DNA of 64,000 nucleotides from Daejeonella oryzae DSM 19973 (GTDB lineage: Bacteria; Bacteroidota; Bacteroidia; Sphingobacteriales; Sphingobacteriaceae), in the NCBI RefSeq assembly GCF_000422945.1, contig NZ_AUHA01000002.1:1426001-1490000 (forward strand). Reading direction: 5' to 3'. A program made the translations under genes and the position numbers. This document shows, piece after piece, positions 7,237 to 10,470 of this stretch; positions within the stretch are counted from its first letter, which is position 1, and the number at the start of each line of letters is the position of its first letter. Below the pieces are notes generated by a model. It ran no database searches. It was given only the letters and a program-made list of their open reading frames with translations, and had not been told where the DNA came from.

Positions 7237-7310
7237 TCCTAAGTAGCTCAGCTGGTTAGAGCATCTGACTGTTAATCAGAGGGTCCCTGGTTCGAGTCCA
7301 GGCTTGGGAG
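7237..7310 (+). tRNA. tRNA-Asn (anticodon GTT)
   Basis: A full cloverleaf: acceptor TCCTAAG/CTTGGGA, D arm with AGCTCAGCTGGTTAGAGC, anticodon stem TCTGA/TCAGA with GTT at 7271-7273, T arm with GGTTCGAGTCC, discriminator G. CCA is not encoded. Its 3' half from 7276 is repeated at 9998, which marks it as the probable integration site of a mobile element. Confidence 0.96.
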
Positions 7311-7364
7311 CAAATGATAACCCTTCAAATTAAGTTTTGAGGGGTTCTTTGTTTGTAAGGGTTT
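7276..7364 (+). repeat. Left direct repeat (attL-like): 3' half of tRNA-Asn plus terminator
   Basis: Starts at the 3' strand of the anticodon stem and runs through the T arm, acceptor and the downstream terminator to TAAGGGTTT. It aligns over about 88 bases with 9998-10085, with a few substitutions and a one-base length difference. Such a repeat beginning next to the anticodon is typical of tyrosine-recombinase integration in tRNA genes. Confidence 0.85.
7319..7354 (+). terminator. Terminator after tRNA-Asn (imperfect copy)
   Basis: AACCCTTCAAA (7319-7329) pairs with TTTTGAGGGGTT (7335-7346) with a G-T wobble, then TTCTTTGTTT. The copy at 10040-10077 is a perfect hairpin. Confidence 0.75.
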
Positions 7365-7530
7365 TTTGGCCATATTTATTTAGATACCGCAAGCCTTCCC
7401 ACTTTGATATATATGTGCTGGTATTAAAATTAGAAGAATATTGTTGCCTCTTATAACTCGCACCGGTTGCAAATCCCGCCGAGCGGAATGGTATTACACA
7501 GCCTTATAACGGTAAATAGTCCGGCCAATG

Positions 7531-7570
7531 GCAAAAAGGAATGCAGCTGCAAAAACAATCAGCTGCATTC
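7531..7570 (-). terminator. Terminator of the kelch lipoprotein gene
   Basis: GAATGCAGCTG (7539-7549) and CAGCTGCATTC (7560-7570) form a perfect 11-bp stem; read leftwards it is followed by CTTTTTG. It lies 17 bases beyond the kelch stop codon. The stretch 7365-7530 holds no gene that I can see. Confidence 0.85.
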
Positions 7571-7587
7571 TTGATTCGACAAATAAC

Positions 7588-9069
7588 TTATTCTAGTTCC
7601 ACAATCCACTGAAACCTGGCGTTGGGATGCGGTCCATTATCGCTGCCCCATCCGGTAACACCATTGAATTGACAAGTTTCTTTGGCACATAAATATAAAA
7701 CTGCATTTTGCCCGGAATCAGTAATCTTAACCTGATCAGTTACATCTATTTCTTCACGAACATCTCCTCCATCAAAACAACCGGTGTTATTGGGATTGAC
7801 CGGTACTGTCACTTTTCGCTTGCCCACAAAGCCCTCATCGTCGGCATGGCCGCTTACCAGAATTACTTTGATGCTTTTAATTTTACCTTTAAAGAATCGC
7901 TTTATTTTTGCTTCCGCTAAAAACCCAATTTTGGTGCTGTTCACGTTATACGTGTGTTCCGTAAAATCATTTATTACTTTATTATCCACATTATACTGAA
8001 ACTCTTGTTTAATGCCGTGGTAAACAGGGATAGTGTCAGAAGGTGTATATTGCCAGAAATCTTTTTTACCGTCAGGGAAATTAGCTCCTGTCCCAACGAA
8101 TCCGTGGTTCCCTATACTAAAACTGACTGCACTAGCGCGATAACCACCATCATCTGGAACATCAGCCTTTTGCTTCCATATATCGCTGACCGGGTTATAT
8201 TCCCAAAAATCCGATGGGGTAGCAAATGAGTTTAAACCGCCTCCAATATAGCCTTTAGCACCAATACCGAATCCGATTGCCGCTTGGCGAGCCTCACCCA
8301 TAAATGCAGCTTTCATGGTCCATTTATCGGTGACCGGATCATATTCCCAGAAATCATTTGTACCGCCAGTTCCGATATATCCTTTATTGAGTATATTAAA
8401 ACCTACTGCTCCACTTCGGAAGCCTCCTCCAAAGTCCGCTTTACGGGTCCATGTATTTGAGCCCGGATCATATTCCCAGAAATCTTTTAATTGAACTGGA
8501 TCTGAGTAACCGGTTCCAACATATCCTTTGTTACCTATTCTAAAACCTACAGCCTGACCACGACCGGTTTGTCCAAAATCAGCTTTCCGGGTCCATATAT
8601 TTGCCCCGGGATCAAATTCCCAGAAATCAGTTTTATATTCGGAATCAGTACTATCGGAATTTAGACCAACACCAGTTACAATATATCCTTTATTGCCTAT
8701 GCTAAAACCTATTGCATTAGCTCGGAGGCCTCCTCCAAAGTCCGCTTTTTGAGACCAGGCTTTAGTGTCAGTGTCATATTCCCAAAAATCCTCGAGAAAT
8801 CCAAAGTTTCTGTCAGAACCTGTTCCAGCACCTGTTCCAATATAACCTTTGTTGCCTATACTAAAGCCCGCGGCATCATCACGGCCTGTTCCTCCAAAAT
8901 CAGCTTTGCGGGTCCAGCTATTCGGACCATTATCTAATTGTGATGCATCCGGGATAAACGACGTCCCGTCCGGTATATTTGTTATTTCTTTTTCACAAGC
9001 GCCCAACGAAAGACAAACTGTTATTAAGATAGTTAAAAAAATGGTTGTCGATAATTTATGTGTTTTCAT
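7588..9069 (-). CDS. Kelch-repeat lipoprotein
   Basis: A 493-residue secreted lipoprotein: signal peptide with lipobox LSLGAC (Cys25), then about six kelch-type blades from residue 50 to 340 built on the repeat (W)TRKADFGG...GFSIGNKGYIGTG...DFWEYDP. The C-terminal part (about 350-493) is a separate beta domain containing SGHADDEGFVGKR and a Cys-containing end, not recognised. It is likely surface-exposed and binds protein or glycan, but no ligand can be named. A DUF4907 gene lies 27 bases upstream on the same strand, and the pair is the cargo of the tRNA-flanked element. Confidence 0.85.
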   Translation of the reverse strand: MKTHKLSTTIFLTILITVCLSLGACEKEITNIPDGTSFIPDASQLDNGPNSWTRKADFGGTGRDDAAGFSIGNKGYIGTGAGTGSDRNFGFLEDFWEYDTDTKAWSQKADFGGGLRANAIGFSIGNKGYIVTGVGLNSDSTDSEYKTDFWEFDPGANIWTRKADFGQTGRGQAVGFRIGNKGYVGTGYSDPVQLKDFWEYDPGSNTWTRKADFGGGFRSGAVGFNILNKGYIGTGGTNDFWEYDPVTDKWTMKAAFMGEARQAAIGFGIGAKGYIGGGLNSFATPSDFWEYNPVSDIWKQKADVPDDGGYRASAVSFSIGNHGFVGTGANFPDGKKDFWQYTPSDTIPVYHGIKQEFQYNVDNKVINDFTEHTYNVNSTKIGFLAEAKIKRFFKGKIKSIKVILVSGHADDEGFVGKRKVTVPVNPNNTGCFDGGDVREEIDVTDQVKITDSGQNAVLYLCAKETCQFNGVTGWGSDNGPHPNARFQWIVELE

Positions 9070-9096
9070 AACTATATTTTTTAAGTTAAAATTTCA

Positions 9097-9468
9097 CTAT
9101 TTAATCACATTCAGGTTTTTCAATTCCTCTTTCGAAACCGTGGGAGGCATTTCCCCTTTTTTTAATTTGCCCATTACTAGCCATGCAACCTTTTCAGCCT
9201 CTGTTTTTGTTAAAAACCCTTTATTGCCGGGTTGGGAAGGCACATTTTGCTGATGAATAAGAATTCTGTTATCTGCATAGATATCATAACCGAAAGTCTT
9301 TTCAGGGGCATTGGTAATTTTATAACTCAGTTTAGAGTTTTTACCAATATTACCCGAAGAGTCAGGCAAAGCAGATTTTGAATTTGAAGTTTGGGAAGCA
9401 TGATCCTGAATACACTGTAAACAGGTAGCAATAAGGAAGAGCATGAAAATAAAAAATAGAGACTTCAT
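9097..9468 (-). CDS. DUF4907-like lipoprotein
   Basis: A 123-residue protein with an SpII-type signal (Cys16 or Cys19 in LIATCLQC) and a compact domain: SYKITNAPEKTFGYDIYADN, LIHQQNVPSQPGNKGF, TEAEKVAWLVMGKL and GEMPPTVSKEELKNL. From memory this matches DUF4907, a family often found beside kelch proteins in Bacteroidetes. Function unknown. Its stop lies 27 bases before the kelch ATG, so the two are probably one transcript and the products may act together at the cell surface. Confidence 0.75.
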   Translation of the reverse strand: MKSLFFIFMLFLIATCLQCIQDHASQTSNSKSALPDSSGNIGKNSKLSYKITNAPEKTFGYDIYADNRILIHQQNVPSQPGNKGFLTKTEAEKVAWLVMGKLKKGEMPPTVSKEELKNLNVIK

Positions 9469-9480
9469 AAGGGAATAAGT

Positions 9481-9684
9481 TTAATTTTGAAATCTAGTAT
9501 TGCTTTTCTGAAGAGTGGAGGAATAAGGTGGTGCATGTATTGATAGTATCCTATCATTCAGTATACAAAATGATAAAGTAAAAACAAAGGATATGAGCAG
9601 GAAAAACGGGAGCTGAATACTTTGCATACTTGATTCTCCAGGGAAATAAGCCAGAAAACATAAAGGTTTGTAAAATTTTTTCAT
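9481..9684 (-). CDS. Possible small membrane protein, doubtful
   Basis: A 67-codon frame starting at the ATG at 9684 (an upstream in-frame ATG at 9717 is less likely), 12 bases upstream of the DUF4907 gene on the same strand. It has one hydrophobic stretch (PFFLLISFVFTLSFCIL) and nothing else recognisable. It could be a leader gene of the DUF4907-kelch transcript or a chance frame. Confidence 0.25.
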   Translation of the reverse strand: MKKFYKPLCFLAYFPGESSMQSIQLPFFLLISFVFTLSFCILNDRILSIHAPPYSSTLQKSNTRFQN

Positions 9685-9717
9685 AACATAATTTTTAATG
9701 CTTGCTGAAGGAGGCAT

Positions 9718-9997
9718 GCATGCCTTGTTGTAAAAATGGCCTGAAATTTTAACCGGTAGCGGCTCGCTTTATGTAAAAGAATATAATAAATTACCTGTTG
9801 CAATGAGGTATATAATACTCAGGGAAATCTGTAGATGAGCGGAAAACAGTTCTGTTTTCAATGAGTAAAACAGAATAGATAAAAGTTAATGAAAATGCAT
9901 CAGCACTAACTATTTGTGAAATTTGCAATTCCACTTTAATACTTAACTAAATTTAAGCATTTATTTATTTAATATACTTGTATTTTATTCGGGCTAT
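9718..9997. other. AT-rich intergenic stretch inside the tRNA-flanked element
   Basis: No convincing gene on either strand. It probably holds the promoter of the leftward DUF4907-kelch transcript and the right end of the element. Confidence 0.5.
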
Positions 9998-10085
9998 TCA
10001 GAGGGTTCCTGGTTCGAGTCCAGGCTTGGGAGCAAATGATAACCCTTCAAATTAAGTTTGAAGGGTTCTTTGTTTTTAAGGGTTT
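9998..10085 (+). repeat. Right direct repeat (attR-like): displaced 3' half of tRNA-Asn plus terminator
   Basis: Matches 7276-7364. It contains only the 3' anticodon strand, T arm, acceptor strand and terminator of tRNA-Asn, with no 5' half before it, so it cannot be a working tRNA. The terminator AACCCTTCAAA/TTTGAAGGGTT here is a perfect 11-bp stem. It probably represents the original end of the tRNA gene before insertion. Confidence 0.85.
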
Positions 10086-10427
10086 ATCTTTAGCCCTGGA
10101 AAAAAGTAAAATATGACTGTTTAGTTTGCAAATAGTTTGCACAAGCAGGATAGGCTCATGTTTGGATTTCATGATCACTTGTTTAAATACAGATGAAATT
10201 AATTTAAAAGGCATACCCGGGAAATTCAACGATTATCGAAAATGCCTTTTCAATGTTTTCTGTCTATTTAATTACATCAAGAGACCCGAAAGTAATCTTT
10301 GCAGTGGCAATCAAAAGCACATCATTTGGATTATTCTGGATCATACTCATCTCTCTTGAAATTTACACCTATTCAGGCAGATACAATTTGACCAGGAAAT
10401 TATTCGGTATATTCAACAATTACACAG
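10086..10427. other. Gene-free stretch between the tRNA remnant and the cassette array
   Basis: Only short overlapping frames on both strands, none with a plausible product or start context. I see no repeats or mobile-element genes in it. Confidence 0.5.
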
Positions 10428-10470
10428 GCATAACAGTACTCAAGTAAGTGAGTTTTATACTTATGTTAGC
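10428..10470 (+). repeat. attC-like site 1 (short)
   Basis: GCATAACA at 10428 and TGTTAGC ending at 10470 are complementary with one bulge; an inner ACTCA/TGAGT pair closes the loop. The next frame starts 10 bases later. It is much shorter than the others and is the least certain of the set. Confidence 0.4.

Follow-up and report, generated by a model that had tools for sequence, protein, structure and literature searches.

Probable tandem remains of two islands behind a tRNA-Asn gene in Daejeonella oryzae

The stretch of the Daejeonella oryzae DSM 19973 genome analysed here (64,000 nucleotides, hereafter the window, with positions counted from its first letter) carries an intact tRNA-Asn(GTT) gene on the plus strand at 7237..7311, called by ARAGORN and scoring 69.2 bits against Rfam. 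Two copies of its 3' half are present in the same orientation: a proximal copy (7276..7363, plus strand), composed of the tRNA 3' half and a terminator-like hairpin (A), and a distal copy (9998..10084, plus strand), composed of a displaced tRNA-Asn 3' half and a second terminator-like hairpin (B). The copies are identical in 84 of 88 aligned columns, with three mismatches and one gap, and their starts are 2722 bases apart. Each of them extends from the 3' strand of the anticodon stem over the tRNA 3' end and the hairpin, which folds at −15.9 kcal/mol in one copy and at −16.0 kcal/mol in the other (z −3.3 each). A 27-base probe for the tRNA half, allowing up to three mismatches, had two matches in the window and none in any of 100 shuffles, and a 28-base probe matched twice genome-wide. 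The initial annotation had described the tRNA-Asn 3' half with its terminator as present twice, 2,722 bases apart, and as beginning at the 3' anticodon stem, and both statements hold; its 88-bp repeat is real as well, with the end of the right copy corrected to about 10084-10087. The 5' half is missing from the distal copy, and resemblance to the anticodon loop upstream of 9998 is confined to a few bases. The distal copy also has a T where the intact tRNA-Asn has a C in all 15 congeners with a hit, as expected of a non-functional copy. The locus thus shows a direct repeat at both ends of the enclosed DNA together with a whole tRNA gene, as in an integrative element inserted in the 3' part of a tRNA gene.

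The enclosed DNA (element Y, 7364..9997) encodes on the minus strand a kelch-repeat protein of 493 aa (7588..9069; Pfam Kelch_3, 1.5e-16), by eye a probable lipoprotein from its signal sequence, and a DUF4907 protein of 123 aa (9097..9468; Pfam PF16250, 4.5e-18). Two further predicted ORFs, of 91 and 134 aa, lie antisense. The Phage_integrase profile has six matches in the whole genome and none in the window (C1:1426001-1490000), and a tblastn search for integrase remnants gave none in Y and, elsewhere in the window, no hit below E 0.37, so that the earlier statement that the enclosed DNA has no integrase is borne out by both searches. Candidate arm-like sites within Y were no better than chance, 40 to 139 of 200 shuffled motifs scoring as well. 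The two non-coding ends of Y had no match at E 1e-5 in a family sample of 399 genomes, bar a single match of 39 bp (G275). The latter was dismissed as a relative of Y, as it lies between two small ORFs (DNA-binding-like by eye) with no tRNA.

The DNA directly behind the distal copy appears to be the integrase end of another element (element X). It consists of an arm-like pair (GTTTG at 10124, period 11) and an integrase-start remnant (ATG at 10171), which together occupy 10112..10180 on the plus strand in a DNA alignment. The distance from the distal tRNA end to the start of the arm-like pair is 91 bp, as compared with 82-112 bp in congeners. The stretch from the pair to ATG 10171 aligned to the integrase end of another genome (G152, at tRNA-Arg) with a score of 61, the best of 1000 dinucleotide shuffles reaching 33; eight of ten comparison regions outscored all shuffles against this same stretch, and two (G005 and G014) did no better than chance, several of the comparison loci having been fetched by the same similarity, so that their scores are not independent. 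With eight reference regions compared and the highest score retained, the distal copy reached 70 against a null maximum of 49 (200 plain shuffles). The proximal copy reached 25, a value attained by 186 of the 200 shuffles, and the integrase end is thus absent there. Only about 10 bp of the integrase start are left at X, and a protein search (tblastn) for an integrase behind the distal copy returned nothing; it is by DNA alignment that the X remnant is recognised. The initial annotation had an accessory region with a cassette array start immediately after the right repeat. Instead, the integrase-end remnant of another element comes first, and because of its position directly behind the right repeat the latter is better read as a junction of two elements. 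The proposal of an element integrated at tRNA-Asn is accordingly supported as regards insertion and revised as regards its right boundary, the next element being a remnant too. Further to the right, a fragment at 10253-10444, which by eye could have passed for the end of a transporter, had no Pfam match. Between 10700 and 17800 there are related inverted intergenic stretches separating unrelated genes, by eye like the attC sites in a cassette array, in a window that has no Phage_integrase match.

The paired motif GTTTG-N6-GTTTG was found 51-66 bp before the integrase start in five of five integrases located at tRNA-Asn (two of them from G014). Beside other tRNAs it accompanied one of 13 integrases, as a tandem run at a locus that had itself been fetched by the motif (L094, apparently the same record as G263:C85). 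These counts refer to a set of 18 integrases from which matches starting after query residue 30 were dropped; the background frequency of the motif is 0.011 per 400 bp. The 23-bp motif of the window is identical to that of G003. An exact scan with 20 bp of the motif returned ten places, two of them before this integrase (L094 and L097). The other eight are in Prevotellaceae or Crocinitomicaceae, with this integrase absent within 2.9-8 kb and with some places promoter-like by eye, so the motif is not specific when taken alone and needs its context. A family scan with positions 10034-10160 gave matches in 61 of the 399 genomes, most of which covered just a short part of the hairpin or of the motif, and 14 places from it were fetched and inspected. 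In five of the 14 this integrase follows directly behind the motif (full length in G152, G263 and G269; partial or broken in G206 and G191b), with a tRNA-Arg, tRNA-Val or tRNA-Lys nearby, and a genome of another genus (G317) presents a tRNA-Asn, the motif and a decayed integrase start; at a further place (G104) there is a tRNA-Asn half copy. Three places resemble a far end (G003:C27, G263:C29 and G191a): the first two lie behind a RadC-like frame (by eye), and G003:C27 (by eye) and G191a precede a tRNA-Val or its copy. A fourth (G040:C3) is similar to these and less clear, and nothing was seen at three of the 14 (G040:C13, G251 and G305). The arm-like pair would presumably bind the integrase.

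The comparison within the genus was based on 20 genomes, one per species, with the tRNA-Asn locus recovered in 16 of them, our own included; the other four had no hit and lie outside the 15 congeners referred to here. All 15 have pfkB upstream of tRNA-Asn. The DNA behind the tRNA differs among most species, even in those with a tRNA identical to that of the window (G002, G003 and G017); G014 and G015 are alike behind it, and the hairpin of G007 resembles that of the window. In the downstream stretches (0.5 to 18.8 kb) the window proteins gave hits of 24-31% only, involving the histidine kinases (in G001, G004 and G013) and the propeller protein (in G009), and in G012 a crtYcd-murB block lies there in reverse. 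As a separate observation, murB and its neighbours are found on the opposite side of tRNA-Asn and reversed with respect to the window in both G011 (L082/L042) and G012 (L043), which amounts to an inversion near the tRNA. As to the right flank of the window, 17 of the 20 genomes, own included, have cvfB (21254); over 20 kb around cvfB in five congeners, none of 21 other window-gene queries exceeded 38% identity, matches at or below this value having been dropped.

An integrase end is located behind tRNA-Asn in five of the 15 congeners (G003, G005, G011, G014 with two copies, and G015), in addition to the genome of another genus mentioned above (G317), and was not found in the other ten. G005 has an intact integrase of 398 aa (Arm-DNA-bind_5, Phage_int_SAM_5, Phage_integrase) that starts 166 bp after tRNA-Asn. 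In G003 and G014 the integrase start is followed by the contig end, in G015 the gene is broken, and in G011 it has decayed to a state visible by DNA alignment only. In G011 the tRNA half and terminator recur 21 kb downstream of tRNA-Asn, both copies having the terminator, and the start of the repeat in the window agrees with that of the G011 repeat to within about 8 bases. In G014 a complete tRNA-Asn, its terminator and an integrase start are present a second time, identical to the first set in 667 of 694 aligned bases; the genus thus has such units in tandem or in circular form. G003, with the same motif 82 bp after tRNA-Asn and a different terminator, is a partial stand-in for an empty site. 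The suggestion that tRNA-Asn is an insertion hotspot is thus supported by the integrase ends in one third of the congeners and by the similar repeat geometry in G011.

Of the Y genes, kelch had no match in 16 of the 20 genomes and DUF4907 none in 17; in the remaining congeners the genes are on contigs other than that of tRNA-Asn, including G004 and G011, in which the two families adjoin again. The pair was found behind tRNA-Asn in none of the 15 congeners. These data bear on the possibility that X entered a secondary site 2.7 kb away from tRNA-Asn, bringing a tRNA half, a terminator and an arm pair of its own, with the kelch/DUF4907 DNA being ordinary chromosome. Such a history would agree with the location of the integrase end of X at the distal copy and with a Y in which neither arm-like sites nor mobility genes were found. 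However, with the kelch pair either absent from the congeners or on other contigs, it had to arrive behind tRNA-Asn anyway, and the few bases resembling an anticodon loop upstream of 9998 make a poor case for a secondary site; we regard this history as unlikely.

The locus would probably be best explained as the tandem remains of two tRNA-Asn islands, with Y having landed between the tRNA and the integrase end of an older X. According to this explanation, tyrosine-recombinase elements of one family (Arm-DNA-bind_5 / Phage_int_SAM_5 / Phage_integrase) would use tRNA-Asn for attachment. They would recombine near the anticodon loop and supply the tRNA with a replacement 3' half, directly followed by a terminator, by arm-type sites and by the integrase gene. 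X would have been the first to arrive, producing the order tRNA-Asn, terminator B, arm pair and integrase. Y, with its kelch and DUF4907 genes, would then have entered the same tRNA, displacing the tRNA half, terminator and arm pair of X by 2.7 kb. The arrival of Y after X at one target would account for the existence of a repeat, for a terminator at each copy and for the base change in the copy that is silent. Later losses would have included the integrase genes, the far end of X and the integrase end of Y; a third tRNA half marking the far end of X was found neither in the window (27-base probe) nor genome-wide (28-base probe). Y would once have had an integrase of its own or have been moved in trans. 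As no arm-like site and no integrase trace above chance was found in Y, it is from the core repeat alone that we infer its entry by the same kind of integrase as X.

The state of the tRNA copies in two congeners raises another option, a local tandem duplication of tRNA-Asn with its terminator, after which DNA would have inserted between the two copies and the second would have lost its 5' half. G004 indeed has three decayed tRNA-Asn copies within about 800 bp, a terminator copy following each of them, and in G001 there are two 3'-half copies in a decayed state. In the window, however, the distal copy is devoid of a 5' half, shares its start with the G011 repeat to within about 8 bases and is followed by an integrase end, all of which renders a duplication quite unlikely. 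The G001 copies are close behind tRNA-Asn (L033, 8162-8540), the first of them with a terminator.

In G104 (L120, 1041-1600) tRNA-Asn and a tRNA-Asn half copy are separated by a GIY-YIG gene, and in G004 (L036, around 14600-13800) such a gene stands between decayed tRNA-Asn copies; the copies in both genomes contain palindromes of the TCCCGAT..ATCGGGA type. Among 30 GIY-YIG loci from the genus, seven have a tRNA, and raw half-copy scores, taken without a null, were 36-48 of 80 in three of these seven (L165, L183 and L185) versus 20-28 in the other four. A GIY-YIG nuclease unit, rather than an integrase, might then have split and restored tRNA-Asn near the anticodon loop in the window, the nuclease being later replaced by the kelch pair. 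The G104 half copy, with its terminator and arm-like pair, is 75% identical to that of the window over 101 bp, and in the eight-reference test it scored 54 against a null maximum of 50. Yet the window contains none of the four GIY-YIG matches of this genome, and hence no such gene between the tRNA and the half copy. Moreover, the nuclease frame of G104 overlaps the tRNA end, where a terminator would hardly fit; in the window and in G011, by contrast, both copies have one. We hold this scenario to be highly improbable. In a broader version, replacement of the tRNA-Asn 3' half would be used by tyrosine-recombinase islands and GIY-YIG genes alike, and the kelch unit would have been moved by the latter or by some other integrase-free route, a notion prompted by 2.7 kb without arm-like sites and one that we consider very unlikely. 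Our literature search found no paper joining GIY-YIG, a tRNA gene, Bacteroidetes and a homing endonuclease.

The two-island reading has parallels among known systems. The closest patterns are the cis-mobilisable/accretion scheme outlined in PMC5704250, within which ICESt1-related work is cited, and the rows of ssrA islands described in PMC3146451. The former source portrays CIMEs as elements that have lost their integration and transfer genes and kept attL and attR, and reviews tandem accretion at an att site. A tRNA-targeting integrative element would have an integrase gene inside; no match to one was found in Y, and X retains a start remnant only. Like a CIME, Y appears as a passive unit flanked by copies of the end of its target gene, here a tRNA 3' end, beside the integrase end of another element; its minus-strand ORFs are kelch and DUF4907, neither of them an integration or transfer gene, and the window has no Phage_integrase match. 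It differs in that core repeats are present at both its ends with no arm-like site found within it, and in that its neighbour X is itself a remnant. The Dehalococcoides ssrA islands likewise comprise several islands lined up behind a single RNA gene, with copies of the 3' end of that gene as boundaries, and many are devoid of integration genes; they involve a serine recombinase and tmRNA, in contrast to the tyrosine-recombinase family, tRNA-Asn and two units considered here. NBU1 at tRNA-Leu, NBU2 at tRNA-Ser and Tn6031 of Sphingobacterium at tRNA-Pro, as listed in PMC5704250, share with our case the tyrosine recombinase, the tRNA 3' end and the phylum, and differ from it in the target, which is tRNA-Asn here.

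The stacked arrangement is therefore ordinary in kind, a known type here traced in detail through relatives, and changes no known principle. Its value is that of a readable case of island remnants piling up behind one tRNA gene, in which the integrase end, the arm-like sites and the displaced tRNA halves can be followed in congeners. The paired GTTTG with period 11 behind a tRNA end may be suggested as a signature for island ends that have no integrase. Integrases of the G005 family also occur at another tRNA gene of the genus: in G013 (L083, 5800-8700) two of them flank a single tRNA-Val and point apart.
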